Source: Paramacrobiotus metropolitanus
Taxonomy: Eukaryota > Tardigrada > Eutardigrada > Parachela > Macrobiotidae
Direction: 5' to 3'
NCBI RefSeq assembly: GCF_019649055.1
Contig: NW_026570243.1
Location: 930,001-994,000, forward strand
Length of the DNA stretch: 64,000 bases
Position numbers and translations under genes: made by a program. Shown one piece after another: positions 12,516 through 32,775 of this stretch (positions within the stretch are counted from its first letter, which is position 1; the number at the start of each line of letters is the position of its first letter). The notes under the pieces were generated by a model. The model searched no databases, was not told the origin of the DNA, and saw only the letters and a list, made by a program, of their open reading frames with translations.

Positions 12516-12672
12516 AGTAGTAGGTGGGATAACATACAGCTCCTAGTGGTCATCTAGCGGAGTTGTGATTACATACAGCTGCTAGTGGTCATCTAGCGGA
12601 GTTGTGACAATAGTAGCCAACTCGGTATTTTGACCGGGTGGAGGGAAGAAGAGCCCGGGGGGGGGTGTTTGT
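12516..12672 (+). repeat. Left terminal inverted repeat of the Polinton
   Basis: About 155 bp, with two direct copies of a roughly 43-bp subunit containing CTAGTGGTCATCTAGCGGAG, then CAACTCGGTATTTTGACCGG and a run of nine G. The inverted counterpart is 33896-34095. Confidence 0.92.
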
Positions 12673-12814
12673 GTAATGTTCTGTCACGTGTAATGTAAGT
12701 AACTACTGCTCGTGATACTGTTCGAGTGGACCGTAAAGTTATCGAAACACAACGTTAGGAAACAGGACCGTCTTGAGTTTTATTCAGCAAGCTTGATTAT
12801 AAAAATATGTGTAA

Positions 12815-14765: not shown

Positions 14766-15302
14766 AAACAGAATAAAACAAGGAAAAGTTAAATTAGAGA
14801 AAATTACAAAAGTTTGTGTGTTTGAATTTAGTGTTGCTTGAGAACGTAACCTTCAAGTAAGATTTTGTTTGTTCACGTTACAGACAACAGAGTACAGTAA
14901 GTGCGAAAATCGAAGTATCAAAAGCTAAAAGCTTAACTTACGTTTTATTGTAGAAGTCGAACAGTAGCAAAAAGAAACGTAGCAGCTGTTTACGCACAAG
15001 TAATATTACGAGTATAATAATAAAGTAACTAGGAAATACGTACTGCTGTTGTTTGCAGACAGTTTCTTGTTATGTTAGTCCTTCCTGTTCATGTTTGATT
15101 AACACCATAATATTCACATGATACAAAAACAAATTCAGGACTTTGTTTACACTTTGCAAAAGTAATAAAACTGCACCATGAGTTATCTTTTTCTGATACT
15201 GTTGCCGTTATATTTGTAAATATTATAAAAAATACCGTAAAAGAAGAAATTTTACCAGCATTTTCAGAGAAAGCAAATTGTAAAAGTAAAACCGTAAATC
15301 AC
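14766..15302. other. Non-coding spacer between two minus-strand genes of the Polinton
   Basis: About 540 bp of AT-rich sequence; I see no gene or repeat in it. Confidence 0.4.
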
Positions 15303-16364
15303 TTAGCAGTTATTTAACGACGCGGAGGCACTTTCGATGTAATAGCTCTTGGTGCTGTATGGCATACTCTGATGGAAGGCCGCACTTCGATGATGTTGAT
15401 AAGCGTATTCCGGGATGAGATCTACGAAAATAAAACATAAATGTTTTCATGACAGTAGAAAATAAAGGAAAACATGGAAAATAGAAGAAATATTACTCCT
15501 TACCACGCAGGTTCAAGATGCCAATGAGTCGCAGCTCAGGGGGGCCGTTGAGAATACGGGTTGTTAATCGCAGGAGGTTTACCAGTTGGGACTCCATTTG
15601 GTGGTGGCGGTTCCCCATCGCAGCCGTCTGATAATACGGTTGCGGTTGTTGAGAAAAGTAGGTGATAGTGTTGTTCGGCGGTGGAGACTCGGGTGAATCA
15701 ACCAGAAGGGGTGAAACGTTCGGTGTTGGACGTACGTATGTGGGAACTGGGGATTCGGATGACCTTTGTGCTACTGGAGAAAGACTCGAGGAAGACAGGA
15801 TGGTACTGGGCGACGGCGGGCTGGAAATCGGGGAATATGACTCCATTGCCTCGGCCACCCGAGCCGCGGTTCTCGGGGACCGGTGTACCACTAAGGCCTG
15901 GGAAGATGAGGAGGGTATGGCACGAGCCCACTGGGGGATTTCCCAATACGGAGGAAGGCTTAAAGAGCTGAGAACTGGTTGACCACTGTGAAGGACTGGC
16001 AGGAGCGGTACGGTGGCGCTGGCTCTTGGTGACACTACGGTTGATGGTACGGCAACTGCTGCTGACATTGGTCTGAATGGACTCACCGTACGGGAAGCTG
16101 CTGACGGAGGGAGCCAGGAACGTAGCATTTGGAGGAACTCTTGCGTCAGGTGAAGGTTGGGAGGAGAGGATACGATGGCACCTGATAAACTAACCTCGCG
16201 GTGGGGGGCAGTGGGTGGAGACCCCGTGGTGGAATGCAGTAAGGTGTCGGGGGGCGATGGTGGGTCGTACGGCGAACATATGGACGATGAAATGGCGCGT
16301 TCCGATTGTCCATGGCAAGGACGGTTAGGACACCGTATAGCGTGAGCAAGACTACTGTATACAT
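15303..16364 (-). CDS. Ser/Pro-rich, possibly secreted protein encoded in the Polinton
   Basis: A long exon (16364 to 15504) and a short last exon (15421-15303) join in phase across a GTAAGG donor and TTCGTAG acceptor. The ATG at 16364 lies about 70 bp from a TATATAAAG box on the same strand (16442-16434). It opens a frame with a signal-peptide-like start, MYTVVLLTLYGVLTVLA, followed by a Pro/Arg-rich stretch. The 211-codon frame that starts at 16128 lies in a different frame from that ATG, so there is a frame break or unrecognised splice around 16130-16330. The C-terminal part is mostly Ser and Pro with SQQPQPYYQ-like segments, then a short helix and YAYQHHRSAAFHQSMPY. No family is recognised. 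Possible roles are a surface or entry-associated protein, which is only a guess from the leader and composition. Confidence 0.45.
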
Positions 16365-16433
16365 CTTGTACTAATGTGCTTAAATTGTTCTAAGAAACAA
16401 CAAACGGACCGAAGATCTCACCCTCGGTTGATT

Positions 16434-16580
16434 CTTTATATACCGGGAGAGATAACCGAAACCGATTCATTTTTTGTACGAGATAATCGGTTTTGATTAA
16501 TTGCACTTGATGTTGCTTAGCACCAGATAATCAAAAACGATTACCCCTAAAAATGAGCCAAAATCCTGGAGGATATAAAA
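16434..16580. promoter_or_regulatory. Bidirectional promoter 1: three TAATC-N6-GATTA palindromes between divergent TATA boxes
   Basis: Palindromic 16-mers at 16453-16468, 16484-16499 and 16528-16543. TATATAAAG on the minus strand at 16442-16434 faces the Ser/Pro-rich gene, and TATAAAA on the plus strand at 16574-16580 lies 56 bp before the ATG of the next gene. Confidence 0.75.
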
Positions 16581-16629
16581 GGTCACCAGAAACAATGACA
16601 CTTTGTGACCTTTCGTTTTCGCATAAAAG

Positions 16630-17991
16630 ATGGATGAACTAGATGAATTTTTTGCATCGCTTAACAGTACGGTAAATGATCCGCCTTCCTCTGGCAATGC
16701 AGGGGGAGGAATTGACTACAATTGGCTGGATAACTTATGCAGTGAAATTAACGAGTCCTTGTGCTCTCAAGAACCTCGTACAGCACTCGCTTTGCCTTCG
16801 GCCAACCCGGTTAATCACATCGTTGAAGAATCTACTACCGATTATGGTTGGTTGGATGAATGGATGAAAGAAGTGAACTTATCAAACTTTCCAGAGTTAG
16901 GTGAGGCCTGGCAGCAGCAATAAGATAATAAAAAACAGTTTCTTAACACCCAACAGGTAATATTAATTTCAGTAAAAAATATCTAATATTATTAAATCCT
17001 TCACAGGCGATTTTTCTACCATCAATTTTGAGTTTTCGGGAGATTCGGATGCACCAGCCGATACCACGGACGGTACGTTTCTGGTCGATCAGAACGGAGG
17101 GCAACACAACAATGCTGCAGCAATTCAGCAGCAGAACACCGTGGCAGAATTCTTTCATGAACGTAAGACCCACAATCCGATAAATAATACTAAATTAAAT
17201 ATAAAAAAAAATCAGAGAATAATCATAGGATTAATAGAATTTCATAAATTTTAAAAAACGAACGTATTACAAAAATTTTAAAAATTATAAATCAAATTTT
17301 AAAGATGATAAGAATAAATAACAAAAAAAATTGTCCTGTTTACAGAGCAGTACATGGACGTCGAGGAACAGTTTGCTGTCAGCTGCGCGCCTGAAGACCG
17401 GACTACGAGTAAGTATTATTAAATAAATATTTAGTTTTATGATTAATCTATCTGGATTTTTGTTTAGACAGCGAGGCTGTCTCCTACGATTTCAGCGCGC
17501 CGTCTACCGTCACCGTTGTGGGCCAAGGGCAAGCTGGCGGAAATTGGGTGTCCGAAGCGGTCGCCCTGACGCTGATAGATCCTCCCTCCCGTGTCTGGGT
17601 GCGGACTAATCAAGAAGCCAGCCATCACGAACTGATTCCTCTTCAGCTGCGCCAGGTTCCATGGGATGTGGAGGCGGAAAACCTCCTGATGTACTTTGGA
17701 GGCGACATCAATTGGACTGGCTGGTTTAGCCACGCGATGTTGGTATTTTTCACCAAGCGCAGTATTCTGGAAATAACTCGAGAAGAGCTACAGATTTTGT
17801 TAAAATACCTGTTTGATGGTGGATGGCAGCATGATGCTGTGCATGCCGTCGACGCAACCAATGGTAAAGATGTGCCGGTGCCACCGTATCGCCGCTTTAG
17901 CCGCACCCTTATCGCGTGGTACAAAAATTTTGCAGCTGGGACTAAGCGGGGGCAAAAGTTGGTAACATCATTTGACTCTGACCCGTGTTAA
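16630..17991 (+). CDS. Acidic-N-terminus protein, candidate Polinton transcription regulator
   Basis: Four exons join in phase to 337 residues: 16630-16900, 17007-17162, 17346-17408 and 17468-17991. The N-terminal 150 residues are acidic and low in complexity. They contain a twofold repeat, DYNWLDNLCSEIN and DYGWLDEWMKEVN, whose mix of acidic, aromatic and leucine residues resembles acidic transactivation motifs. The last exon encodes a compact C-terminal domain of about 170 residues (from TVTVVGQGQAGGNW to LVTSFDSDPC) rich in Trp and with several basic residues; I do not recognise its fold. The gene is intact, has its own TATA box and palindrome array, and is placed first on the plus strand, just before the polymerase. 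A role as the activator that reads the TAATC palindromes is inference only. It could equally be a replication accessory protein. Confidence 0.65.
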
Positions 17992-18186
17992 TCATTTTAA
18001 TACGTTTGAAGGTTCCGTCAATATCAATCTCGCAGCTGTAGAGTCTTTACTGAAGCAACAGCCTGTACTCTCTGTGCTTTTAACGGATAATGTGGTAGTT
18101 CCTGGGCTGTTTTAACCAGGGTCTGTTTTCTAAAACGATGATGTTGCAACCATAATATTGAGGCGTGAAAACAAAACGTCAAAAGA

Positions 18187-18412
18187 TGATCGGATACGAT
18201 TACCCGCATCTCTACGATCACTAGTAGTACAAAAAAATAATCGGTTCTGGTTATCCTTACTCTACGCTACTATTACTGGTAGTACAAAAAGATAATCAGT
18301 TTTGATTATCCAGTTGACTGAGTTGTACAAGATGTAATCGGTTTTGATTACCTGTATTACAAAAGCTGTTTTGGGAGATAATCAAAATCAATTATGTGTC
18401 CTGGTATAAAAG
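18187..18412 (+). promoter_or_regulatory. Promoter 2: five TAATC-N6-GATTA-type palindromes plus TATA box before DNA polymerase
   Basis: Palindromes at 18187-18202, 18238-18253, 18293-18308, 18335-18350 and 18379-18394. TATAAAAG at 18405-18412 lies about 60 bp before the polymerase ATG. Confidence 0.75.
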
Positions 18413-18466
18413 AACTCTCCCGCAAGATGAAATTCATAGTATTCTGTCTTTTGTTCTTTCAAAATC

Positions 18467-21400
18467 ATGGATGACCTTAACAACGATATTCCATATGCTG
18501 TGGAAGATTTCATTAACGTTGAATGTACTGGTGAGAAATTTTCCAAAAAATACGGGTTACATTTCAAGTGTTTTTCTGTAAAAGTGTCTGAGCTGGAGAA
18601 ATTACCTTTTTCGGATGTGCCTATTGTTATAACCCAGATTTTAGAGAACATACTAGACACGCTCCTGGAAGATGTCGGACCGAGTGAAATGGTCAGGATG
18701 CGCTTAGATTCAAAATGCCTGAGCCGACCAATTTGGACACCACCAATCCAGCGGTCGCAACTGACGGTGGACCGGTGGATGGCGGTGGTCGCTCGTGTGT
18801 TACACTCTTACGAAGAGTTCGTTATTGATGAGTCTTTTGAGATCTCCCTTCAAGATACGGATATTCCTAAAGGTAAGTGTAATCGTGAGGTTCCTGCTTT
18901 ACTACGGAGACGACTGGAAAAGATGAGGTCAGTGGTGGTTATCAAAAATTCGGACGAGATTTGCCTTGCCCGCGCCTTAGTTATTGGGAAGGCTCATGCT
19001 GACGAAAACAAGAACCTTTATCGGAAGTTATTACGAGGGCAAAAACTACAAACCAAAGAAGCTCAGTGCCTGATATACCGAGCGGGTTTCACCGAACAAG
19101 AATTCAATCTTCGACACCTGCATAAATTCCAAGAAATTTTACATCAATATCAGATTATTGTTGTCAGTGTGGATCACGCGAATTTAATTGTCTTCAAAGG
19201 TCCCTCACAGAAGAAAAAGATTATTCTGCTGCATCACGACCGTCATTTCGACTTGCTGAATTCCCTACCAGCATTTTTCCAGAAAAGATATTGGTGCTAT
19301 TCGTGCGACAAAGGATACTCGAACCGAGAAAACCATCGCTGTTCTAACATTTGCAAGGCTTGCCTTCGATCCACATGCCTATCGGATTCGAGGACTATGG
19401 TCCATTGCAATGATTGCAACCGCGACTTTTCGGCTCGGACGGCTACACACAGCACAAACAAGCGGCTACAAAGGGCAAGCCATCTCAAAAAAGTATTTGC
19501 GGTACGGTGTTTGTTTGCAAGAAGTGTCTACGGATAGTCTCGATGAAACGAAGAAAGCCTGGAAACACTCACCAATGTGGAGAAGTGTTCTGCAAAACCT
19601 GTCAAATTCATAACCTACCGCTGTCGCACCAGTGCTACATGAAACCACACAAGATTGATGCCGACGAACTGGAAACTGAATGCGAACGCGGATTTTTTGT
19701 ACTTTGACTTTGAAACCTATGTTGAGAAAGACGGAACTCTGGTACCAAATCTAGCTGTAAGCTCTAATATAATGCTATATCCTTCGTAGAAACGGTATAT
19801 TACTTTGTATTTTAACTGGTTCTAGGTGGTGCAGACGACAACGGTTGTGAATGGGTCTTCCCTGAAGAAAATACACCTCTCAGCGGTGATATCACGAACG
19901 AGTTGTGTGCCTTTCTGTTCAGTGAAAAACACCGGGACCATTTCATTATTGCGCATAATTTTAAGGTGCTAATTCAGTTGCCAATTCTGTTTTAAATCAA
20001 CCTAATTTATTTAACTGACGGCATTTTTCTTGCAGTCTTTCGATGGATACTTCATTCTTAATTGGATACTTAAAAACGGCATCGTTCCGAAAGTTATTCT
20101 GAATGGTGGAAAAATACTGCAGCTTGACGTGCCCCAGCTGAACATCCGGTTTCGAGACAGTATTAATTATAATCCTCAAAGTCTGGCAAAATGGCCAGCC
20201 ACGTTTGGCTTACCAGAAATTAGCAAAGGAACGTTCCCGCACCGGTTTAACCGGAGAGAAAACTGGGATCAGGTGGTTCCATTCCCAACACTGGATGATT
20301 ACGGGTACCAATCTATGAACAGCAAAACGAAAGAGTCTTTTGAACGATGGTATGAAAAAGAAAAGCAGGAAAAGAATAACCTATTCGATTTCCGAGAAGA
20401 ATTCGTCAATTATTGTAAGATGGACGTTACGGTTCTTCGGCTGTGATGCCAACAATTTCGAAAGCTCTTTCAAGAAATAAGCCAAGGTCTGTGCCCGTTT
20501 GTCTCCTCATTAACCATTGCCGGACTGTGCAATCGATATTGGCGATCTTTCATGTTGAAACCCGAACAAATTGGATTATTGCCTCATGGACTGAACGCTC
20601 GAAATCGGCACCAGTCAGTAAAGGCAAAGAAATGGTTATCGTGGGTCGAAGAGGAATCCAACCGCCCCGTGCAGTCTGGGATAAACAGTTCCGAATACAG
20701 AGTGGGACCCTACTACGTCGACGGTTATTGTCAGGATATCAACATGGTGTACGAGTTTTACGGTTGCCTATTCCATGGCTGTCCAAAGTGCGTTGCGCCT
20801 ACAACGATGCACCCGTTCCGCAACCTGCCTATGTGCGACATTTATAAAGAAACTATGGACCGAGAAGAATACATACGAAAACAGGGCTACGGTCTCACTA
20901 GCATTTGGGAGCACAACTATGACGAGGAGCTAAAATCAAATCCCGACATGAGAGCTTTTGTTTCGCGTTTACATTTTACCGAACGACTGGACCCCGCAAT
21001 GCTTTTTATGGAGGAAGAACAAACGCTGTGAAGCTCCTTCATCAAGTGGCTGCATATGAGCAGATCTGCTACTTTGACGTCAATAGCGAGTACCCATTCG
21101 TTAACAAAAACAGGCGTTATCCTGTTGGACATCCCATTATAATTACAAAGAATTTCCAGGATATACGGTCCTACTTCGGTGTGGTTTCGTGTGAAGTTTT
21201 ACCACCTGGAGACCTGCAGTATCCTGTTTTACCTTATCGTTCTGGTGGTAAGCTAACGTTTCCTCTGTGCCGAACTTGTATGGAAAAGCATCTGAACACC
21301 AAATGTCAGCACGCTGACTGTGAGCGTAGTATTACTGGCACCTGGTGTACACCGGAGATTCAGAAAGCTTTGGACAATGGGTACAGTATTGTGAGGATCT

Positions 21401-22512
21401 TTGAAGTATGGCACTTCGACAAGCATGAAGATCATCTGTTCGAAAACTACATCAATCAATTCCTCAAACTGAAAACCGAGGCCAGCGGTTGGCCGGCTGA
21501 AGTCCAAACTCCAAAGTGAGCAAGAGAAGCGGAAATATATTAAAGATTTCAAGGAACATGAAAACGTTGACTTGGAATACAATAGAATCAGTCCAAATCC
21601 TGGTCTGAGAGCACTGGCAAAATTATGTCTGAACAGGTAAACGTTTGGAAAGATGCCGTTATTTTTAGTTATTAATATTTTATTTTCAGTTTTCGGGGCC
21701 GGCTTGGAATGGAGGACAACAAACTGAACACCATGTACATCAGCGAACCGGAGAAATTTTACGACATGCTGCTGTCTGGAAAGCGTCACGTCCATTCATA
21801 TGACCTTTTTACGGAAGATGTTGTACAAATAACGTACACCACTGAAAACGAATTCGTTGATCGTAACCCAAACACAAATGTTATTTTGGCGGCGTAAGTA
21901 AAAATATGTCTTCTTTCAATAAAAAAATTTAATTAAATCTGAGTTTTTACGTTATTTTAGATTTACAACGTGCTGGGCACGGTTGCATCTGCTAAAATTT
22001 ATGGAGATGGTGGAAGGCCGTTTACTGTACTTTGATACAGGTTCGCCGCCCCGGTCGTCTGTTTGTCAATAAATGATAAATATTTATCCTATAAACTTTT
22101 ATTAGATTCAATATTTTTTGTGACTCGGCCCGGACTTACGGACCCACCTACTGGTATTTTTCTTGGCGACCTGACGAACGAGCTAAAACCTGGACAACAT
22201 ATTGTGGAGTTTGTCAGTTTGGGAGCAAAGACCTATGCATACGTCACCAACGATGGACAAAGTGTGGTAAAAGTTAAAGGATTTACCATTAATGGACGAA
22301 CCAGCGAAAAACTTAATTTTAAAATGATGTTAGACATGCTGGCAAACCGCAGCGTTGTCAATGTGGATTATCCTGATATTTTGCAACGCAACAAGTCTAA
22401 AATGACTATTCATAATACGAGCATGGTCAAACGATTTCAAGTAACGTATGACAAAAGACGAATAGTTTATGATCAGTATAATACCGTTCCGTATGGATAC
22501 AAGGTTGCTTAG
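18467..22512 (+). CDS. polB: Protein-primed family B DNA polymerase of the Polinton (multiple introns, frame-broken)
   Basis: This replicates the element's DNA from its ends. The N-terminal third has paired Cys/His clusters (CYSCDKGYSN, CKACLRSTC, CNDCNRDF, CKKCLRI, CGEVFCKTC) typical of Polinton polymerases. The 3'-5' exonuclease motifs follow: FDFETYVEKDG, AHNF joined across an intron to SFDGYFIL, and YCKMDV. The polymerase motifs are DVNSEYP (motif A), KLCLNS joined to FRGRLG (motif B) and YFDTDS (motif C). Motif C is split by the intron at about 22041-22105 and is restored by splicing. Other introns: about 19756-19828, 19966-20036, 21640-21689 and 21896-21960. The frame is broken near 19,428, 19,693, 19,838, 21,002 and 21,510, and an in-frame TGA stands at 20444-20446. 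Several breaks lie in homopolymer runs, so they may be assembly errors. As read, no full-length product is possible. Confidence 0.92.
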
Positions 22513-22585
22513 AGCAATGATTTATTAAATTCATCGATCATTTCCTGAATCTCATGTACCGCTTCCGCTAACTAAGCAAACTGTT

Positions 22586-23471
22586 TCAGTCCCAAAAATT
22601 ACATTTACCCGATGGAAAAAGCACTGCACGGCCAACATTGAGTTTAACGGCCAGACCACTGAACAGTTCAGGCGTATATTCCAAACGAAAGTACGTACTA
22701 AATTTTTCAATATGCAAACGGTAAGAAAATGCATGATTACCAACAATATTTACTACACGGTAGTTGGTAACAATACAGGTAACACCAATACTAGCCAGAA
22801 TTTCGGCAAAGTGCTGCACTAGCTCGCGAGCTTCAGGCTCAGACCGCGCACCATTTACGGTAATCTTACCATTGCGGTACAGCTGGCAGTGAGCTTTGTA
22901 GGGCAAAAGGATTCGAAGGAGCAGTCCGGAAAACTTTGGGGAATGTACTGTGCCATCGGAAGAAGTTCTTCAATTTTCCTCAGGTCCAGGGTAGTGTTTA
23001 AATCCGCAACGGCAACAACATTGGTGATTTTGGGCATCGCAGTGGTACCACAGGGCGAAGCGGACGGCTTTGCGTAGAGTTGAGACGGGAGCGAGGTAAG
23101 CTTATGATACGGTGGGCAGCCCAGGGATTCCAAATTTCTTACTACCGGTAAGTACTGTTCTAACAACCGGCCCTTTTCAAGCCCCTTGGCGAAAAAACGC
23201 ACTTGGCTGGGTCGACCAATTCGTCGGAAGACGTCCTCCAAGGCGCAGGTCACTTGATTATGTCGATATTCTCCTTCCGTGTTCCACAGTAGGCCGTGTG
23301 AGTGGCGCGCTTGTCTTTTCAGTTCGGCGATGTGCTGGTTTGCAAAACGTGGTAGCGTAAACGTGTACAGGTTTGTTCCGCTTTGTCCGGGCAGTAAAAG
23401 GCGAGCTGTTTGATGTATTTACCGCCATTGATAACGAACCAGTCGGTATCCAGTATGCAAGGCGTAGCCAT
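22586..23471 (-). CDS. TATA-binding-protein-like protein fused to an uncharacterised N-terminal domain
   Basis: The gene runs from the ATG at 23471 to a stop at 22586. The C-terminal half follows the TBP core closely. First repeat: PKITNVVAVADLNTTLDLRK then YIPQSFPDC and YRNGKITVNGARSEPEA. Second repeat: YRVVNIVGNHAFSY then YTPELFSGL and FPSGKC. The protein ends right after the second FPSGK, so the last TBP strand and helix are missing. The N-terminal half (DTDWFVINGGKYIKQLAFYC, then NLESLGCPPYHKL) looks like an RNase-H/DEDD-like domain common in unannotated invertebrate mobile-element proteins. That assignment is weaker. The frame is broken near 23,370 and near 22,912. TBP binds TATA boxes and nucleates RNA polymerase II (or I/III) initiation, and the element's promoters hold canonical TATA boxes. 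I know of no standard Polinton gene of this type. Confidence 0.75.
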
Positions 23472-23626
23472 TTCTACTACAATAAAAGCAGCAAAAAATA
23501 AAGTGAAGAATTATTTAATAAAGCAACCAAAACAAGCTTGCCTTTGTGCAAATGATGCGTTCCTTTTGAGAGCTGATTCATTACACTCGTACTTGTAGTA
23601 CTAAACACATTTTGTACTAGTAGAAG

Positions 23627-23965
23627 TAATCAGAAACGATTATCTTTCGTACATAATCGAAACCGATTATACAGATAATCGAAACCGATTATACAGATAA
23701 TCAAAATTGGTTATACAGATAATCAAAACTGGTTATACAGGTAATTAAATACGGTTATGCAGATAATCAAAACCGATTATGCAGATAATCAAAACTGGTT
23801 ATACAGGTAATCGAAACCGGTTATACAGATAATCAATACCGGTTATACAGGTAATCAGAAACGATTATCTTCTGTACGAGTAGAGGTAATCCAAAACGAT
23901 TACCTACGTCCTCACGAAATATGGAAGTACGATTACCAAGCAAGCGGCGGTGACCCTATATAAAG
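23627..23965 (+). promoter_or_regulatory. Promoter 3: twelve TAATC-N6-GATTA palindromes at about 22-bp period plus TATA box
   Basis: Units of the form TAATCGAAACCGATTA (many with GGTTA as right half) run from 23627 to 23902. Most start 22 bp apart with a TACAGA linker, so they sit on nearly the same helical face. TATATAAAG at 23957-23965 lies about 70 bp before the ATG at 24033. Confidence 0.8.
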
Positions 23966-24032
23966 TCGGTGCTGTAGCGTAGTCTCACGAACAGTTGTTT
24001 TTACTTTTCTTTCCTAACTTTGATTTCTCCAC

Positions 24033-24984
24033 CATGGAATTTATGGATCTGTTGACATCCCAACGACCAGCCGCTGCCATCAAGCCAAACGCAAAGGTCA
24101 AGAAGAAGGAGGCAAGTCGGAGGTGAAGAAGAGCAAGCCCGACAACTTACCAGTTACGGTTCCCACGCATCCGCGGTTTGCTTTCACGCAATTGGGGAAG
24201 CCGGTGTACCGCTTGGGCAACGACAAGTTCGTCTACGTGGGACCGAACAGCGACGAAAGATCAGTACGATTCGTGTAGTTTTGGAGAATGGAAAGAGCAG
24301 CCGGACAATTCCTGGAAAGCCAGCTACGGGAAGAATGTCTCGCTGTCGAAGACCGGTTTTCTCCGCTTGGCCGCACTCATGCTGACCGAGAAAGCCGACA
24401 TGGATGAAGCGGCCCGGGCCAGCGCAGCCGAAACCGGACGCCTGACACCACTGTATTTGTTGGACACTAACATGTACTTTGGTTGGAGCCGTTTCAGTGG
24501 CACCAACGTAGCTACAATCCGACGTTTTGAAGTAAAGGGTGGCGATATGATTCCTACTCGCTACGGTATCTCTTTCGGTGAACGATGCTATGACGGTCTG
24601 AAGAGTTTGATGAAGGACCTGCAGCAGTTTAAGGACATTGCCAAAATCCAAAAAGAACAGGGTACCCAGGACCCAGTCAAAGAAGGATTAGCATATCCCA
24701 TGCTCTGCGAAAACATTGCCGAAGTATTGACGCCTTTGGTGAAGCAGTTGGATAATGGAACCTATAGCCGTTGTCCGGATGGTGACTATCAACCTTCCGA
24801 CATCGAATGGAACGGAGCTGTGGAGCGGCTGTTGGAATTGCGTATGGTGCATGGTATCTTGTTTGGACTGGACAAGCTAGGGATTGAACAAGCTATTGAT
24901 CTGGACGTTGCTAGTTATTTGGCTAAAAATGCTGAATCCATTCGTGCCAGTGTTGGGGCTAATATTTGTGCCAAATATTACTGA
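24033..24984 (+). CDS. PC4/SUB1-like (single-stranded DNA / transcription coactivator-like) protein, frame-broken
   Basis: The gene starts at ATG 24033 (MEFMDLLTSQRP) with a Lys-rich leader, like PC4 proteins. Two PC4-like modules are visible: SFGEWKEQPDNSWKASYGKN followed by VSLSKTGFLRLAALM, and a better match TIRRFEVKGGDMIPTRYGIS followed by FGERCYDGLKSLM. PC4 modules bind single-stranded DNA and assist RNA polymerase II transcription. The last hundred residues are helical and unassigned. The frame is broken near 24,108 and near 24,257; downstream of the second break the frame is open to the stop at 24984. The gene is preceded by the largest palindrome array in the element. It could act in replication as an ssDNA-binding protein instead of in transcription. 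Confidence 0.55.
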
Positions 24985-25038
24985 AGTGTTGTTTTTTCAT
25001 CTACTCGTACGAATAACGGAACCGGGTCAGTGAATTTT

Positions 25039-25595
25039 TTATTTCATTAAGCGCTTGCACATTTGTCGGAGAAGAGCTCCATCCACCATGGTTGTATTAT
25101 TGTCGAAAAAAGAATTAACATACTGACAAACCATTTTGTCGTTGCTTATTCGGCTATCCGTAAACAAATGCACAATATTAGTATATGATTCACCACTACA
25201 ACGTCGTAGAATAAAAAACAAACAGTACTGTCCACAGACAGTGCTAAATTCAGACTGAAACTGTTCATTTTGTAGAGTTATTTCATTGACGGCCACCAGT
25301 GACGCAAAATGCGGAGAGTAGCTTTTCAAAGTTTTCCCGTACGAATCAAACATTTCCATTTTACCGGCCTGTTCCTGGTACAGTGCAATCCAATGTTCGC
25401 CTTCTTGGCCGGCTGGGTCGGTATTCACTACACACGCTCCTGGAAAAGGTGCCAGTGTCGCTGGAACTTGATCGCTGGCGTAGACCCCACGAAATACGGC
25501 TGTTGTCTGAGGATTCCCATGGAGGGCCGAGGTAATTTCCTGTGTATTGATGTTGTAAAGTCCGCAATCAGCTGACGATGCTGGATGATTTCAAT
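25039..25595 (-). CDS. Adenovirus-type cysteine protease (maturation protease)
   Basis: The catalytic triad is readable: His in GEHWIALY, Asp in MEMFDSYGK and Cys in STVCGQYCLFF. Upstream in the same frame, without ATG but open back to about 25595, the sequence continues as ADCGLYNINTQE, FRGVYASDQIP and ACVVNTDPAGQ, the normal N-terminal half of this family. The enzyme processes capsid and core proteins during virion maturation in adenoviruses and is a Polinton core gene. No start codon is visible in this frame because it runs into the 3' end of the capsid gene; either the start is lost or the capsid/protease junction holds a frame break. The stop is at 25039. Confidence 0.88.
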
Positions 25596-26880
25596 AATGC
25601 TGTCATAGACTAGCATGCACACCATCATAATGGTACTTTTTAGTGGTTTTCCGAACGACACGGAGGCACTCAGGTTTCCCTGTTTTATCAGTGTCAGTGG
25701 TCCACGACCGGTATGTCCTGGAGTCAGGTCGAATCCAAAAACGGTGTATCCGTCGTTATATTGGGTCCGATTGAACGGTAAGCCGCCTTGCAAGCTGGGT
25801 CGGTGTCCCAGTGTGTCCAGCAGCCCGTCGTAGCACTCCAAAGATAAATTATGGGTAAAATCGGCAGTGTAAGGTTTCGTAGGGTAGCTCTGGCCGTCCA
25901 CTTCGACGCTGATCTGTGTAATGTTGAAGTGTTGGAAGTTGAAAGGATTTTTCTTTTGCGATCCGTGAAAGTCTTCGCTGTCCACAAAACCAATAAAGAC
26001 AACCTTGGGAATTTGTCCAATCTGCAGATTGCTAATTACGGTGCTTTGGGTTCGTTGGGGAATGTCCGACACACGCATCACTACGCGTTCGATATGATAC
26101 TTGACCGTCTTTTTCAACAGTTCTCCAGCGACGGCGGTCAGAAAGTCCGGTGATGGAATGTAGCGACGTACTGACAAACGCGCGTTACGGATAAATGGTT
26201 TGAAGGTCTTGGTGGTGTCCGTATCCCATACGCGTAGGGCAAACTCTGGTCGACTTACCACTAGGCGAATATTGACGGGAACACCGGGTGCACAGCGGTT
26301 TGCTCTGATCAAAAAGGTCCGAAAACAGCTTACCGGAAAGCTGCACGTAGTGTCCCGCATTAAATAGTGCCGCTCGATTTTTTTCACCGTTATTGGCGGT
26401 TTCACTGTTGAAGGAACCTGGGCTATCGTAATAGAAAGCGGCGGATGTCAGTTGGCTTTGTTGGGCGTCCAGTGTGTGGGACAACAGTGATTCCAAGTAA
26501 GCGCGGTACGGGTAAAACGTTACGGCATCCGAGATCAGTCGGTTGGCTACCGTGACATGGCATGAGGAAAACAGGGAGTGCAGAAGGTTGTTAACTGGTG
26601 CCACTCCATCTGCCGTTGTGATGAGTTCCCATTCACCTGTGGTCTTACGGACTTTAATGCCCACTTCTAATTCCAGGATCATGTCCGCTAAACTTAATAG
26701 TCCGGAGGTGCTAGGTGGAATGAAGAAATTGATGTCACCGGCCGATCCGTTGTCCGTTAAGATGGTAGTGGGGTTGAGCTTCTCATGCTCGGTGCGCTAT
26801 CCGTCCGTTAAAGTTGCCGGTAATGCAAAGAGTTGGTTCTCCAGCTGCATGGCCGGCTCCAAATTTTCCATCATCAACAT
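25428..26880 (-). CDS. Polinton major capsid protein (double jelly roll), frame-broken
   Basis: This is the hexon-type shell protein. The start is at ATG 26880 (MLMMENLEPAMQLENQLF). Family blocks seen: FFIPPSTSGLLSLADMILEL, PVNNLLHSLFSS, TFYPYRAYLESLLSHTLDAQ, PVNIRLVVSRPEFAL, GFVDSEDFHGSQKKNPFNFQ and, near the C-terminus, LVYDSIIEIIQHRQ. An in-frame TAG stands near 26,798 and the frame changes near 26,310. The last frame stays open to 25428, past the expected protein end (about 25560), because it overlaps the protease in another frame. Adjacent minor capsid genes lie immediately upstream on the same strand. Confidence 0.9.
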
Positions 26881-26891
26881 GGCTATTTTTT

Positions 26892-27290
26892 TCAGAAGAA
26901 ATCGGGGATATTGGTAGGAGGAATACGTTTAACTCTTTGAACTTTACGTCGAACTCGTCGTTTTTTCCGGACACCTTCACCTTCTTGAGAAGCGAATCGT
27001 TTTCCAATGGCTGTTCCCGCACGCGAGGCTACCTCTTTAATAGCCCCGGTCGCCGCTTCTTGCAGGTGAGGGGTAGCCGCTTCAAAAGCGGCTTTGGCAT
27101 GCGGTGCTGCTTTCCGTAATATGGGTTGAACAAATCCTGATAGCTTGGCAAACAGATTTTTCAAAATTTGGGGAAACCCCGATCCGTTTTGGAGGGTTCC
27201 TCGATAACGGATCAGTGCGCTGCCACCCGTTTGACTGACAAAGACGTTTTCGTATCGCCGGGGATCCGGCACGTACGCCACGAGAGGCAT
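26892..27290 (-). CDS. Small basic minor capsid protein (adenovirus pVI/pX-like position and composition)
   Basis: 132 residues, intact. The N-terminus has a Gly/Tyr/Arg motif (GGSALIRYRGTLQNGSG). Next come amphipathic helices rich in Ala (AKAAFEAATPHLQEAATGAI) and a strongly basic tail (RKKRRVRRKVQRVKR) that could bind DNA or serve as a nuclear signal. Polintons usually carry such a gene next to the capsid genes, with helices like the membrane-lytic part of adenovirus VI; that analogy is inference. It sits 11 bp upstream of the major capsid start and 1 bp after the penton-like gene, so the block is packed like a viral late region. Confidence 0.65.
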   Translation of the reverse strand: MPLVAYVPDPRRYENVFVSQTGGSALIRYRGTLQNGSGFPQILKNLFAKLSGFVQPILRKAAPHAKAAFEAATPHLQEAATGAIKEVASRAGTAIGKRFASQEGEGVRKKRRVRRKVQRVKRIPPTNIPDFF

Positions 27291-27291
27291 T

Positions 27292-28261
27292 CTAATATAG
27301 TCGTTGTGGTCGGAAATGCAGCTTTACCAGAGATTTTCCGGTTTGGAACTTGGCGTCGTCTCCCAGGTCATTGGCAATGGTCAGTTTAATGGTTTCGAAG
27401 TGTTGTCGTAATACAGGGACGTAGTGCGGAATGTCGAATCTGGCCTCGACAATTTGATTGACTTCTCCTCTAATAGGCACGGAACGCAAAAACTGCGCTG
27501 CGGTATCGCCGATCAAGCTGTAGTCGGCCACATCACTAGACAAACAGGCTCTGATTTCCGAGTAGGGTATTGACCGGTCGCTCCGAAATAAAGCTGGTCA
27601 ATTTGGGGTTAGGGGGCTTGGCCAGAAATGATAGGTACTGGATACTGACGTTCTTCGTTTCAAATGGAAATGGACCGGTCATTCCATTGCTGTTACTTTC
27701 CATTGGTACATCCGGTTTTAGTACATCATGTTCAAATCCGAGCATTTTCTGTAGGACTATCGACGACGGAGGAAAGACAATAGAAACCCGATCGTTACCA
27801 ATATTCAATCGGACCCGATGATCGGTGGCGGTCAGCAGTTGAACGGTGAAAGCTCTGTCGGCAGTCAAGGCGCTCTTGTCAGCGTGTACTGTGTCGTCCA
27901 CCATGTACGATCCCACTTTGGGTACCAGTGAATTGATGGTTTTTAATAGCAAATCGGCATCCTTGTAATTTCCAGGAGGGATAGTGATCTCGTCGGTATG
28001 GACAACTTGGTCCGCGGCCTCCAAAAAATTCGCTTCATCTTTCTTTAATCTGAATTCTTTAACGATGTGCACCTCAATCTTTTGCTCAACTGGAAGAGTA
28101 AAAAAGGAGTTGAGGTACTGTAATTCAACCAGGGCCATTTCCCATTTTCCTTTCAGGGTAATGGGATGCTTCAGTTTGGTCGTCCAATTGGACGGGGTGT
28201 TGCTGGGGTCCGTAGCCACATCGCTCGGCAGCGTCACGTAGAACGGTGCTCGTTCATACAT
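27292..28261 (-). CDS. Penton-like minor capsid protein (single jelly roll), one frame break
   Basis: It starts at ATG 28261 (MYERAPFYVTLPSDVATDPS) and shows the Polinton minor-capsid pattern: NWTTKLKHPITLKGKWEMAL near the N-terminus, ITIPPGNYKDADLLLKTIN in the middle, and DIPHYVPVLRQHFETIKLTI then GKSLVKLHF at the C-terminus. The frame changes near 27,545, between the LGNQSLFV and SSDVADYSLIGDT parts; otherwise it is open to 27292. This protein occupies the vertices of the particle. Its start overlaps the 3' end of the integrase/chromodomain frame by about 28 bp. Confidence 0.85.
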
Positions 28262-29349
28262 GATGCCTTTATCCAGGAATCGTGTTCAGGTCCGTAACCT
28301 AACCACCGTACTAATATCTTTTCTCCACGGCGCTTAATAACGCGGTCGAGGGTATGTTCCTTCTGTTCCGGTTGCGATACTTTGGAAAGTTCGTGTTCGT
28401 AGAATGTTCCTTGGATAGGCTGGTCTTAGTAATCCTGTAGTCCGTATAACGGTACTGTATGCGATATGACTTTACTAATGTAGAACACCTCCTCCTTAAA
28501 TCGATACGTATAGCCTTTTTCCACCTTTGTTTTGTGCACGGCAATGCGAACCGCATCACCGACTTTGAACCGAGGTCGCCGGGTCTTATTCATAGGATAC
28601 AACTTGTTGAACACTGCCAATGAATTGTGTTGTGTGACGTCAATGGGTCGCAATCCATGGGCTCGATGTTTCGAATGGTTATACGAGTACACAAAATCTT
28701 GCAGTTTGTCAATGTACCGCGTCGACACTCGCGCTCGGAACAGGCGAAACATCCGTGTTTTGATGGTGCGAATGACGCGTTCGGCCATGGCACATTTTAT
28801 GTCTTCGTTTTCCGATGTGAAGAAATGAATCTTTTTTTCTTTCAGAAAAGTCTTGACGGTGGCGTTTACAACTTCGGTTCCTTTATCGTATTGCAGCTTC
28901 TCCGGTTCGCCGAGTTCTTCAAAGGCCTGTGACAAGGCGTTTTTGGTTTCTTTGGCCGTTTTGGTTTTCATTGGTTGAATGCTTAGCTTTTTGGAAAAGC
29001 AATCAATCACAAAGAGAAGGTGTTTGAATCCGTCATTTTCTTTGGAATATTTTGACAAATCAGCCAGATCCGCTTGATACTGCTGGCGAAGGTTGGTCAC
29101 TACGATCCGATTGCGCGCAAACCGCCGGCGATTTTCTTTGGTCACAGTGTACGCATCGATCTCCTGCAGAATCTCCTGTGCTTTCCGTCTGTTGGCTCTG
29201 GTCTTGAGACTTCTTCGAAACCTTTCTACGCTTCCAAGACCGCCGGGGTCGCGTGGGTTGAGGTATCGCTTCATTAGCTTCTCCATCTGCTTTGTTACAA
29301 CAGGTGGACACGCAATTGATCTTAAATATTCGGCATAATCGTAATACAC
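28234..29349 (-). CDS. Retroviral-type integrase with C-terminal chromodomain (in-frame stop between them)
   Basis: The rve catalytic core shows its three acidic residues: the first in ADLADLSKYS, the second in QYDKGTEVV and the Glu in AERVIRTIKTRM. The N-terminal YLNPRDPGGLGSVERF and the YTVTKENRRRFARNRIVV blocks are typical of Polinton integrases. The main frame ends with TAA at 28428-28426. The same frame goes on afterwards and encodes a chromodomain (DRVIKRRGEKILVRWLGYGP, then HDSWIKAS) up to 28234. No clear HHCC zinc knuckle is seen upstream. The start is uncertain: the frame opens at 29349 with a non-ATG codon, and an ATG in another frame lies at 29386. The enzyme would insert the element with 6-bp duplications, in agreement with the flanks. 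Confidence 0.92.
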
Positions 29350-29367
29350 TAGGCAGCAAGCTAGCCA

Positions 29368-30207
29368 TTACGTCAGAGTAATCCACTGGATTCTGGACGC
29401 ACCCGATCCTTTTTGAATAGTACGGGAGCGCAGCTTCCTCACACTGCCTCCAATCTGGTCCGCTTTTCTCTTTTTACCGTGAAAGGGAGTGGTGACCGGA
29501 AATAGAGGTCGCCGCGGTCGCTTGTATGGATATGTTGGGTTCACCTTGTCTTCGGGCTGCCGTTTCCGACCTTTCCGCGGTGCTGTCGGGGCAAACAACG
29601 CTATGCGCGCTGTTTTGGTTGGTCGCACTTCACCGCTGTCGTCTTGAAAATACCGCTTGCGTCCTTTCTTCGGCAGTGTTGGTGGAAACAAAGCAATGCG
29701 TGCTGCCTTTGGTCTATTGCTGTCTTCCGTATCGTTTTCCAAGTCCCGCTTTTGGCCTTTGGTAGGTAGATCTGACGGAAATAATGGTTGTCGAGGCTGC
29801 TTAGCAGGCTTCGTTGACTCATCGGTTTCTTCCAACAGTTTACGCTTGCGAGGTACTGGATGTGATGGGAGCGACGAAACTGTTGGCGGTCGTAGCGCTC
29901 GGTGTGCAGAGGCTACCGGCTGCTTTTCGGAAGCTATCGGTGGTGGTTGTGCGGCAACGTCAGTTGATAATTCCAAAGGATTTTCATCGGGTAGGGCTTT
30001 TTGTTTAAGAGCGAGGAACCGTTCCAGAATGCTGCTTAACTGGCTAGCTTTTTCAAATTCACTTATATCGGTTCGTTGCAGTGTTTTCGCCACTAGCGCA
30101 TCCAACGTTATGACACTGTGAGCTTCTGGGGGCTCCTTGTTGATCTGGAGCTGGTTCTGCATCCGGTTCTCCATCACACGCCGTGGTACTATGAAGAATT
30201 CATCCAT
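29368..30207 (-). CDS. Basic core-type protein with tandem basic/hydrophobic repeats
   Basis: 279 residues, intact, ATG 30207. The N-terminal helical region (SVITLDALVAKTLQRTDISE and following) is like the structural protein encoded next to the integrase in many Polintons. From about residue 120 it becomes a set of four or five imperfect repeats of around 30 residues, each with a GxKR basic cluster, an acidic stretch and a closing ARIALF/PRRPLF motif. The C-terminus is again basic. The composition suggests a DNA-condensing core protein (compare adenovirus V/VII), which is inference. The start overlaps the preceding small gene by 8 bp, consistent with a compact co-ordinated block. Confidence 0.6.
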   Translation of the reverse strand: MDEFFIVPRRVMENRMQNQLQINKEPPEAHSVITLDALVAKTLQRTDISEFEKASQLSSILERFLALKQKALPDENPLELSTDVAAQPPPIASEKQPVASAHRALRPPTVSSLPSHPVPRKRKLLEETDESTKPAKQPRQPLFPSDLPTKGQKRDLENDTEDSNRPKAARIALFPPTLPKKGRKRYFQDDSGEVRPTKTARIALFAPTAPRKGRKRQPEDKVNPTYPYKRPRRPLFPVTTPFHGKKRKADQIGGSVRKLRSRTIQKGSGASRIQWITLT

Positions 30208-30526
30208 TGCCGATCAACGATGTTAAAACTCCAGCAATGACAGGTAAGATGGCTCCAGTGAATCCTCCTTGTTGAAATATTTTCCGTTTTTCTTTGAGCG
30301 GATACCGGCGCAGGGCAATCAGCTTTAATGCTTTCCGGTGGCGTTTACATTTCTCTGCCCGCGCTGTAGACAAATTCACAGTATTTTTTACAATGTTGAC
30401 AGCGACCTCTTCCAGTGCTTTTAGTTGGGTCTTGGTCAGGTAGCTCATCAAGACCTTGCGCTGCTGCGGCTTTAGGTGTTGAAGAGTAATTATGAAAGGT
30501 GCCAGAGCTTTCACGCGTTTGGACAT
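30200..30526 (-). CDS. Conserved small Polinton protein with QxGGF motif and hydrophobic C-terminus
   Basis: 108 residues, intact. The pattern LKPQQRKVLMSYLTKTQLKA, EVAVNIVKNTVNL, KRHRKALKLIALRRYPLKEK, QQGGFTG and a hydrophobic end (AILPVIAGVLTSLIG) is one I associate with a small uncharacterised protein found in many Polintons and adintoviruses. It may be a minor virion or membrane-associated protein; function unknown. Its start overlaps the ATPase end by 16 bp and its end overlaps the core protein start by 8 bp. Confidence 0.6.
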   Translation of the reverse strand: MSKRVKALAPFIITLQHLKPQQRKVLMSYLTKTQLKALEEVAVNIVKNTVNLSTARAEKCKRHRKALKLIALRRYPLKEKRKIFQQGGFTGAILPVIAGVLTSLIGNG

Positions 30527-31200
30527 TTTGGCAGGTCGTTGGTACGGTTTCGGTCGAGATAAATACGCATCTGTTGATTCGGTAGCACGTGCGAACGATC
30601 CCTTAAATAGTCGAAGCAGTTGGGGCGTAAGTCCAAGACAAGCGGTTGATATGCCTCTGTTGTGACTTTATTGTATGCGTCCACCAAATGCTTGTGTCCT
30701 GTTTGACGAGCCAATAAGGAGATCTGATTGATATCACGCACGTTCTTAAATAGTACCAGGTACTGGGAGTTCAGCATTATGTCCCGCATAGTCTTTCCTT
30801 GTTTGTACAGGTTTTGAAGGAGCATGATGACAGAAATATTCTTATGATGTATTCCACGGGTAAAGAGGTCCGAGCACCGCACGTCTTTACACAGATCCGT
30901 AGCCAGGCCATCAATGACGACTAAAGTATGGTTGTCGCTATCGATAGATTGCACCACTGAGAAGAGGTCATCCAAACCATGTAGGAACTCAACTTGTGCA
31001 ACGTCTTTTCGTAGTTCGTCAAAACCTTTCTGCCACTGACCATAACAATATAGTATCCGAGTTGGTGGGCGATCGAAAACCGCTGAACTGTTTTTTAGCA
31101 ACGTGAAAACAAACTGCGTTTTACCCGACATTGTAGGTCCACAAACACACATACCAAAAGAAACGCAAAAGCGCGGATAATCATTTATTATTCCAAACAT
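30511..31200 (-). CDS. FtsK/A32-type genome-packaging ATPase
   Basis: 229 residues, intact, from ATG 31200 (MFGIINDYPRF). Walker A is GPTMSGKT at about residues 21-28, and Walker B is LVVIDGLATD at about 94-103. A conserved downstream block follows (HHKNISVIMLLQNLYKQGK, then LNSQYLVLFKNVRD). The family pumps DNA into the preformed capsid and is a Polinton hallmark gene. A TATTTAAG box lies about 40 bp upstream (around 31246-31238 on the minus strand), a likely start of a short late-type transcript. Its stop overlaps the next gene. Confidence 0.92.
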   Translation of the reverse strand: MFGIINDYPRFCVSFGMCVCGPTMSGKTQFVFTLLKNSSAVFDRPPTRILYCYGQWQKGFDELRKDVAQVEFLHGLDDLFSVVQSIDSDNHTLVVIDGLATDLCKDVRCSDLFTRGIHHKNISVIMLLQNLYKQGKTMRDIMLNSQYLVLFKNVRDINQISLLARQTGHKHLVDAYNKVTTEAYQPLVLDLRPNCFDYLRDRSHVLPNQQMRIYLDRNRTNDLPKCPNA

Positions 31201-31253
31201 TTTTGATTCCGAAATAATTCACACCAGTAAGCTCGACGGCTTAAATAAGCTAT

Positions 31254-32132
31254 TTATGCAAAAAACATTTTAATTTTTTCCAAAATCAGCTGACGGCAAA
31301 GCGGGCATTCCTGTACGCGACCAGCACATTCGGTGCAACAAATTGCATGCCCACACGGTGAAAAACAGATTGAAACGTTTTTATTCAAACATACGCTGCA
31401 CTCCTTTTCCAGCTGACAGTTTTCGTCCAGTCGTGCTTCGATGATACGGGCCTTGATTTTATTTGCCGCTCTCACGAGGTCCTGGATGCGGTTGAAACGT
31501 TGAAACTGTTGGACAGCCTTTATTAGGTACGTGTAATGCACACCTTCGTCCCTGGCGAGCGCCACCAAAAAATCCATTCGATTCTTGCGCAGGCTACCCG
31601 CCCACTTCAGTTTATCCATGTTGTGAAACCGTCGAACCTCCTGAATGAATCACAGGCCTTTCTTCTCCAATAAATATTCACACCGAGGTTCATATTTGGC
31701 TTGCTCGATCCACGGGTCGTCATCGCGTGTCCACTGCATCAGTTTACGCCCGCAACAAAAGCACTGCACCTGATCCCATATTCCCTCCATGAAAAAAAAC
31801 CCGGCATTGGCCATATCCATTGGGCGCTGGCTAATGACTTGCCCCGGCGATTTAGCGTACGTGGCAAATCGATCGCGGTATTCCTTCATGGCCGGAACAT
31901 ACACCTCACCATCCGCCACTAGAGCAGCGAACGAGCATTCCGGACTGATACGTCGGTGCTCGAACTTTGGCAGGTCACCGATCATCCAGTTGAAATGAAC
32001 CATCCGGCACAGCACGCACTTTACTTCGTCTCCTTCTCCTGTGTAGATGAAACCAGCTTCCGCAAGGGACCGCGGTGAAACGTACGACAAGGGCCATTTG
32101 TCAAATGTCTTTAGGCGATCTTCCAAACTCAT
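31254..32132 (-). CDS. IAP-like protein: two BIR domains and a RING, split by an in-frame TGA
   Basis: From ATG 32132 the frame encodes two BIR zinc modules: BIR1 with KTFDKWP, AGFIYTGEGDEVKCVLC and EHRRISPEC, and BIR2 with ANAGFFFMEGIWDQVQCFCC and a WIEQAKYEPRC end. It stops at TGA 31652-31650. Ten codons later the same frame reopens at ATG 31619 and encodes a helical linker and a C3HC4 RING (CSVCLNKNVSICFSPCGHAI then CPLC). BIR-BIR-RING is the usual inhibitor-of-apoptosis layout, so this is either one gene interrupted by a nonsense codon or two adjacent genes. In the family, BIRs bind caspases and RING is a ubiquitin ligase. A divergent 73-bp promoter is shared with the small gene at 32206. 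Confidence 0.88.
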
Positions 32133-32205
32133 CTGTCGTTCGGCAGCCTGTACAAAAATGTCTATTTAAGGACTGCGGTCGTACTCGTACTTTATCGGCT
32201 TCACA
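32133..32205. promoter_or_regulatory. Short divergent promoter between IAP and small membrane protein
   Basis: Only 73 bp separate the two ATGs. CTATTTAAGG (about 32162-32171) contains the symmetric TTTAAA and could serve as a TATA-like box in both directions. No TAATC palindrome occurs here. Confidence 0.45.
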
Positions 32206-32391
32206 ATGGCTAACTTGCAGCATATGATGTGCTTGGGTCGCAATGTCGAGCAAAAATGCGAAAAAGTTCTTTTAATTATTTTGTACGTTGTGTTTTTTAT
32301 TGTATTCGGTACATTTATTGTTACGGACGGAATTGGGAAAATTCTACAAACTGATCACTGGAATAAAACTTTACGGAATGGTACATCATGA
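32206..32391 (+). CDS. Small single-pass membrane protein
   Basis: 61 residues, ATG 32206. A short N-terminal part with two Cys is followed by one strong transmembrane helix (VLLIILYVVFFIVFGTFIV) and a hydrophilic tail with an N-glycosylation sequon (NGT) at the C-terminus. A TATTTAAGG box lies about 40 bp upstream. It is too short for family assignment. Its place beside the IAP and ANP32-like genes suggests an accessory role. Confidence 0.5.
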   Translation: MANLQHMMCLGRNVEQKCEKVLLIILYVVFFIVFGTFIVTDGIGKILQTDHWNKTLRNGTS

Positions 32392-32515
32392 CTTACCGAC
32401 GTGACGGCGGAACAAAAGCGGGTAGGATGACAATCACGAACGGTCATGTTAAATCGTGCACAGTAATTCATTGAAAAAGCATTGCGTTACTGACCTTTGC
32501 CGATCTTTTTGGCTG

Positions 32516-32700
32516 CTTTATATATTATTTTGGGTATAATCAGAAACGATCATCTTTGATAGGATAATCGATTTTGGTTACTTTAACTCGTACGTCAGAT
32601 AATCAGAACCGATTATACGTACTATCGTTACCATAGAGTACTAGGATAATCAGAAACGATTATCCTTCTCAAAACAGACTATCCTGTTCAGTATATAAAG
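32516..32700. promoter_or_regulatory. Promoter 4: four TAATC-N6-GATTA palindromes between divergent TATA boxes
   Basis: Palindromes at 32537-32552, 32565-32580, 32600-32615 and 32647-32662. TATATAAAG occurs on the minus strand at 32524-32516 and on the plus strand at 32692-32700, the latter 76-84 bp before the ANP32-like ATG. No minus-strand gene with an ATG close to the left box is evident. Confidence 0.75.
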
Positions 32701-32775
32701 GTAGAGCTGGCACTGCGTTCCTTGCAGTCTTTTTTTTCAAATTACCTGTTTTTCTTAATCGATAAATCGCTAAGA

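Follow-up and report, generated by a model that had tools for sequence, protein, structure and literature searches.

Polintons have long been regarded as ancestral, or otherwise related, to many eukaryotic DNA viruses, and to our knowledge little is known of how their genes are expressed. The DNA studied here (the window, i.e., the whole stretch of 64,000 nucleotides that was analysed) had been read in a preliminary description as holding a gene for a TATA-binding protein (TBP)-like protein inside a Polinton. This raises the question of whether a mobile element carries a TBP of its own, and whether it employs it to initiate transcription of its own genes. An element TBP paired with a conserved variant box would make a concrete initiation system, consisting of one protein, one 8-bp site and one gene set.

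The window contains a Polinton

The element begins with AGTAGTAGG, ends with CCTACTACT and is flanked by identical GTCTAA 6-mers at 12510-12515 and 34096-34101. It shares with Polintons/Mavericks and adintoviruses the terminal inverted repeats, the 6-bp target-site duplication, and genes for PolB, a retroviral-type integrase, an A32-like ATPase and an adenain-like protease (Table 1). Among the corresponding Pfam profiles, PF03175 and PF00665 scored above cut-off, while PF04665 and PF00770 matched below it. The PolB stretch 18467-19537 has at least 116 matches in the same genome and the packaging ATPase at least 151. Capsid genes gave no convincing Pfam match in the window; jelly-roll candidates at 25428-26682 and 27536-28261 are placed by position only, and the pieces next to the protease are what we take, from position, to be the major capsid protein (MCP). 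The PC4-like gene has a recognizable start codon and a frame that is broken somewhere along the stretch, and a relative at L003:2520-3233 matches PF02229 above cut-off (E 1.9e-8). Its product might act as a coactivator or bind single-stranded DNA. In many copies, this gene lies divergently from the EXO-TBP gene pair described below.

Table 1 Features of the window and the evidence by which they were placed.
Feature	Position	Strand	Evidence or remark
Polinton element, 21,580 bp	12516..34095	.	inverted repeats and 6-bp target-site duplication GTCTAA
Left terminal inverted repeat	12516..12664	+	repeat comparison
Right terminal inverted repeat	33898..34095	-	repeat comparison
Canonical TATAAAAG, 62 nt before PolB start (18467)	18405..18412	+	
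PolB region, interrupted or spliced ORFs	18467..22512	+	PF03175 E 3.7e-17 on 20030-20446; 3' limit by eye
TBP gene remnant, both TBP repeats recognizable in pieces	22509..23037	-	PF00352; relatives; far end by eye
EXO ORF, predicted DnaQ-type exonuclease (RNase H-like) fold	22970..23471	-	overlaps TBP start; interrupted; 3' limit inferred from relatives
TAATC-N6-GATTA palindrome array, overlapping 22-bp tandem repeat	23627..23902	+	between EXO/TBP and PC4-like gene
Canonical TATATAAA, 77 nt before PC4-like start	23957..23964	+	
PC4 (transcription coactivator p15)-like C-terminal domain gene, divergent neighbour	24034..24984	+	PF02229 E 9.4e-4 on 24178-24984, below cut-off
Protease (adenain-like) and presumed major-capsid pieces	25039..26682	-	PF00770 E 0.0021 on 25039-25428, below cut-off
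Integrase (rve)	28426..29349	-	PF00665 E 5.8e-12
TATTTAAG box, 42 nt before integrase ATG, inside upstream frame	29321..29328	-	synonymous sites frozen
Packaging ATPase (A32-like)	30511..31200	-	PF04665 E 7.4e-4, below cut-off
TATTTAAG inside ATPase codons Y-L-R, 83 nt before 108-aa gene	30602..30609	-	
TATTTAAG box, 47 nt before ATPase start codon	31240..31247	-	

The element carries a TATA-binding protein gene

Two minus-strand pieces of the window match the TBP family profile PF00352 above its curated cut-off of 22.9 bits, at 22586-22906 (E 4.7e-14, 52.4 bits) and at 22855-23253 (E 3.8e-6, 27.1 bits); the TBP start codon lies at 23037. The protein had been described as ending early after the SGK strand of the second repeat. 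Instead, the window frame is interrupted there, the second repeat resumes beyond the break and related copies carry it complete, i.e., the copy in the window is decayed. Relatives with an open frame of the kind that we call type I encode TBP cores of roughly 170-205 aa. Type-II Polinton TBPs (L012:4174-5244, L013, L021) have a long C-terminal tail, in which an acidic motif is repeated around TLxQCxKLVAQ and which by eye resembles an activation domain.

We then asked how tightly such genes are associated with Polintons across the genome (169.8 Mb, 533 contigs). The PF00352 search scored 150 of 493 candidates and listed 150 matches, which merged into 122 loci with the host TBP included. At least 97 of these 122 loci have a listed ATPase, integrase or PC4-like match within 12 kb, and such 12-kb zones make up 2.9% of the genome. 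Two further TBP queries extended the combined list to at least 206 entries, counting the host TBP and possibly some fragments, and at least 133 of these lie within 14 kb of a listed ATPase. Conversely, a TBP lies no more than 14 kb from at least 129 of the 150 Polinton ATPases listed. Our data strongly support the proposal of the preliminary description that a mobile element carries its own TBP; we read the gene as coding for a compact TATA-binding protein that belongs to the Polinton and not to the host. Scans of viral contigs for TBP and ATPase confirmed nothing, and a profile protein search for TBP relatives was dominated by archaeal-like TBPs.

Sequence comparison with the PDB retrieved archaeal and eukaryotic TBPs, with a best E of 7.4e-21 for the relative L014. 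An AlphaFold model of the metagenomic relative P0001 (pLDDT 97) predicts the two-repeat saddle that characterizes the family, superposing on the human TBP core 1cdw with a TM score of 0.91 and an rmsd of 1.4; all 44 PDB matches of this model at E <=0.001 are TBPs or TBP complexes. Residues were counted in 27 type-I rows from this genome, 30 metagenome rows and 12 type-II rows. The type-I proteins retain the intercalating phenylalanines F99 (27/27), F190 (27/27) and F207 (26/27, with one gap) as well as the contact asparagines N69 (27/27) and N159 (26/27). The position of yeast F116 is a tyrosine in all 27 type-I and all 30 metagenome rows and a phenylalanine in 9 of the 12 type-II rows. The glutamate that contacts TFIIB, E188, is kept in 23 of 27 type-I, 30 of 30 metagenome and 12 of 12 type-II rows. 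The Polinton protein thus resembles cellular TBPs (PF00352; yeast, human, archaeal) in its predicted saddle, three of four intercalating phenylalanines, the asparagine pair and E188, and differs from them in the tyrosine that replaces the second phenylalanine in type I; most Polinton TBPs also lack a long tail. Most residues for DNA bending and TFIIB contact are kept, and the protein is predicted to bind and bend TATA-like DNA.

A TATTWAAG box precedes the ATPase, the integrase and a small gene

Upstream regions of the packaging ATPase were compared in 20 fetched copies plus the window. TATTWAAG occurs in 15 of the 21, at -42 to -63, and four more have CATTTAAG at -43 to -80, which brings the total to 19 of 21; distances were counted from the beginning of the match, which in some rows misses the true start by one or a few codons. 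Shuffled ATPase upstreams gave box means of 0.2-0.9 with a maximum of 4, and TATAWA was found in none of the 21. As related copies share ancestry, these and the following box counts are not independent observations; the 21 upstreams fall into 16 clusters at 65%, ten of which contain TATTWAAG. The median pairwise identity of the regions is 0.51 vs 0.50 after shuffling, and their commonest 8-mer is TATTTAAG.

The integrase presents a second case, with the box in 11 of 15 fetched copies and none in the other four. In the ten copies whose start codon could be placed, it lies at -33 to -42, and it falls within an upstream reading frame. Among 13 aligned rows (L074, L075 and L077 failed the search pattern), the codons covering the box are almost invariant (ATA 11/11, TTT 12/13, AAG 12/12, ATC 12/13), whereas the other 14 codon columns around it use two to five synonyms each. 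Of all our observations, these near-fixed synonymous sites speak most strongly for a function of the box. A third instance precedes the 108-aa gene, where the box lies at -82 or -83 within the codons of the ATPase in the window, L014, L015, L016, L019 and L027.

The box is not a uniform property of all copies. The ATPases that adjoin a type-I TBP (L014, L015, L019, L026, L027) have no TATTWAAG upstream, and four of these five, all except L026, have the box before the 108-aa gene. L061 and L062, the two ATPase upstreams without any box, also have an adjoining type-I TBP. Furthermore, TATTWAAG was absent from a further 20 ATPase upstreams. These had been chosen as TBP-less Polintons, and a wider TBP search then listed an adjoining type-II TBP beside 17 of them, leaving C48, C41 and C95 with no TBP among the matches listed. 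The ATPase box is thus tied to one arrangement, in which the TBP lies several kb from the ATPase.

Other genes behave differently. In almost every copy read, TATTWAAG is missing at promoter-like distances from the MCP, penton-like, 132-aa and protease genes; penton-like genes have [CT]ATTTAAG at -132 (L014) and -117 (L015). The capsid and protease genes are packed end to end and might share an upstream start. Before EXO-TBP, the box is found in 3 of 21 upstreams (L014, L019, L031), which belong to one clade. In the window, [CT]ATTWAAG occurs 10 times in the 21.6 kb of the element and 13 times in the 42.5 kb around it, a density only slightly higher within the element.

Canonical TATA boxes are frequent before PolB and the PC4-like gene

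In the preliminary description, TATA boxes were said to stand in front of the element's own genes. This is borne out for four plus-strand genes of the window and does not extend to the element at large: TATAWA occurs in 10 of 115 non-redundant upstreams vs 9.1 in shuffles, and we therefore rejected canonical TATA as an element-wide signal. It is, however, enriched before PolB, where TATAWA is present in 11 of 21 upstreams (shuffle mean 2.8, maximum 9) and [CT]ATTWAAG in none. The PolB start codons are unsure in 11 distant copies (L087-L097); where the match begins at or close to a start codon, TATAWA occurs in 9 of 10 upstreams. Fisher tests of PolB vs ATPase upstreams gave p 1.6e-4 for TATAWA and p 1.1e-6 for TATTWAAG. 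For the PC4-like gene, 15 loci picked for a usable start codon yielded TATAWA in seven, with the TATA boxes coming from two clades, and [CT]ATTWAAG in none. EXO upstreams have TATA in 6 of 24 on a looser pattern and TATAWA in 4 of 21, the latter count omitting L005, L006 and L007 as duplicates. Taken together, the promoter boxes are split between gene classes.

The window contains 12 copies of the palindrome TAATC-N6-GATTA where 0.1 would be expected. All are inside the element, in clusters at 16484-16543, 18293-18350, 23627-23902 and 32600-32662, at a distance of 45-70 bp upstream of the four canonical boxes. Among the loci fetched, it was limited to 4 of 20 PolB upstreams plus L007/L024, L009, L010 and L032; it is absent from 20 ATPase and 15 integrase upstreams. 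We regard the palindrome as a candidate operator of replication-class promoters in the clade of the window.

A model for transcription by an element-borne TBP

As far as sequence can tell, the likely role of the protein is in transcription initiation. We think it probable, with modest confidence, that the viral TBP drives the element's own TATTWAAG promoters, which predicts both binding to the box and expression from it. The protein would bind TATTWAAG before the ATPase, the integrase and the small gene, bend it as cellular TBP does and recruit host TFIIB through the conserved stirrup glutamate, whereby host RNA polymerase II would be loaded on the virion-assembly genes. The idea of a private initiation system in the preliminary description gains indirect support, from the variant box before these three genes and not from the canonical TATA that it envisaged.

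In this model, host machinery would start the replication-class genes (PolB, PC4-like) from ordinary TATA boxes before the element TBP acts. Its widest reading, a two-phase RNA polymerase II programme with host TBP and TATA for replication genes and then the element's own old TBP lineage and TATTWAAG for virion-assembly genes, is about an even call in our judgement, if slightly less; we infer its 'early' and 'late' classes from gene function. Host TBP might also accept TATTWAAG. In either reading, our analysis suggests that Polintons could direct part of their own transcription.

Alternatively, the Polinton TBP could act as a decoy or repressor on TATA or on TFIIB that damps transcription of the host or of competing elements, with host factors reading TATTWAAG. 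We consider this unlikely. The retained DNA-contact and TFIIB-contact residues would suit such a protein too, and as canonical TATA boxes are common before the PolB and PC4-like genes of these elements, a competing TBP could regulate those; the decoy leaves unexplained, however, why ATPase upstreams lack TATAWA and have TATTWAAG in most copies. We hold it somewhat more improbable still that the protein serves replication, packaging or the choice of integration sites by bending or tethering DNA, much as TFIIIB attracts the yeast element Ty3. Such a function would fit its neighbours, an ORF with an exonuclease-like fold and a PC4-like, possibly single-strand-binding, protein, but it accounts neither for the TFIIB-contact glutamate kept in type-I, metagenome and type-II rows nor for the segregation of boxes by gene class.

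TBP and the upstream ORF lie in different frames at the readable junctions

The ORF upstream of TBP, termed EXO, had been taken for an unrelated N-terminal domain fused to it. A model of its metagenomic homologue P0159, built from four sequences only, matches DnaQ-type exonucleases; as a chain of a Maelstrom complex is among the structural matches too, the fold alone does not show exonuclease activity. P0159 and the TBP homologue P0020 are both reported on a 1,728-bp contig from the same source, which suggests that the pair may be joined outside this genome too.

In all 17 junctions at which both ORFs are readable, EXO and TBP overlap by 14-167 nt in different frames, with an offset of +1 in 12 and of +2 in five, the latter from two clades. 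As the offset varies, we rejected a fixed fusion or a conserved programmed frameshift; the one-frame stretch of the window is due to a break in this copy. An exonuclease-TBP fusion protein made through one frame, splicing or a frameshift is accordingly very improbable as a general product, also because an in-frame stop immediately precedes the start codon of TBP in L014 and L031, where no in-frame splice join was found. Single long frames do occur in L009 and L011 (403 and 407 aa), and in L009 part of the upstream domain is also seen in a different frame. Moreover, L017, L018 and L025 lack a start codon ahead of the first strand in the TBP frame, and a GGTAAGG donor, a branch-like sequence and a ACAGACAG acceptor delimit 74 nt whose removal would join EXO and TBP in frame, so that a splice-joined fusion is possible in this clade. 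Other copies have weaker candidate splice joins or none, and several carry a TBP without recognizable EXO. By eye, sequences resembling 3' splice sites (e.g. TTTCAG, TTTTCACCAG) also stand right before the EXO start codon in L011, L017, L024 and the window, suggesting a 5' UTR intron or trans-splicing.

Polinton TBPs are under selection and form a lineage of their own

The Polinton TBPs are under purifying selection. Of 42 pairs with dS 0.08-3.3, 41 gave a dN/dS (Nei-Gojobori) of 0.00-0.23; the remaining pair, L009-L010, gave 0.96, and the frame of L010 shifts near its end. The remainder of the 82 pairs comprised three with dS 0, one with dS 0.01 (ratio 0.57) and 36 that were saturated.

A maximum-likelihood tree of 82 rows separates 69 Polinton and metagenome TBPs from 13 eukaryotic, archaeal and archaeal-like rows with a support of 100/99, the depth of this split being uncertain given the program's long-branch warning. 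Among the 13 cellular-type rows group the metagenome rows P0037 and P0039. The tree omits L002, L004-L007, the window, TBP ORFs below 140 aa, P0031, P0032, P0036, P0038 and all but seven of P0040-P0158. Ten compared Polinton and metagenome TBPs are 24-30% identical to the host TBP, or 24-35% when host and yeast TBP are both counted, whereas the host TBP is 80% identical to its yeast counterpart. That a host TBP was captured and multiplied passively with the element, without function, is suggested by the interrupted window copy and is largely refuted by the low dN/dS, the low identity to host TBP and the separate clade, which leave it scarcely any probability.

Relation to known TBP-like proteins of viruses

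Compared with cellular TBP, the Polinton protein is thus divergent, borne by a mobile element and placed in its own clade. The closest functional parallel is KSHV ORF24, described in the accessible part of one report (PMC12529657) as a gammaherpesvirus TBP mimic that reads TATTWAA late boxes. By the same account, its N-terminal domain binds the polymerase, an additional domain at its C-terminus binds DNA, and the glutamates for TFIIB are missing. ORF24 and the Polinton TBP are both TBP-like proteins encoded by viruses or virus-like elements, and the TATTWAA of the ORF24 late promoters recalls the TATTWAAG of the Polintons. The type-I Polinton proteins, unlike ORF24, consist of the TBP core alone and retain E188; the multi-domain layout was not found among them. 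In Polintons, the box precedes the ATPase (15/21) and integrase (11/15) and, at a promoter-like distance, not the capsid genes, lateness being judged from gene function. If our model holds, an unrelated virus lineage has reproduced from a true TBP gene the late-promoter logic and the box of the herpesvirus mimic, and Polintons represent a second route, besides that mimic, to a TATT-type late promoter.

A TATA-binding protein gene is also reported in 59% of mirusvirus genomes (PMC10132985, consulted in part). These are eukaryotic dsDNA viruses too, likened here by description; they differ from Polintons in being large and having an HK97 capsid, and the portion of the article covered mentions no promoter pairing. 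The poxvirus factor VITF-3 (TBP/TFIIB-like) recognizes viral promoters and works with the viral RNA polymerase, according to the part of PMC12917281 that was available. The structural match to poxviruses is weak (vaccinia intermediate complex chain 8p0j_H, E 0.014). The literature covered, in partial text, dealt with Polintons/Mavericks/adintoviruses, virophages and virus-encoded TBP and included PMC10675990, PMC10132985, PMC12220804, PMC12529657, PMC11071308 and PMC11071193, with most subscription papers outside its scope; within it we found no report of a Polinton, Maverick or adintovirus TBP. The Polinton TBP lineage is ordinary in fold, while its carrier and its association with a variant box are apparently new.

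Further features of the element

At 31254-32132 on the minus strand, the Polinton encodes a BIR-domain protein (E 5.1e-38) and, separately, a RING protein (E 2.8e-12), a pair that resembles a split inhibitor of apoptosis. The element is also flanked by one repeated stretch in direct orientation, at 9464-11495 and 34560-36459, ~25 kb apart, whose copies have diverged (repeat pieces 77-86% identical).
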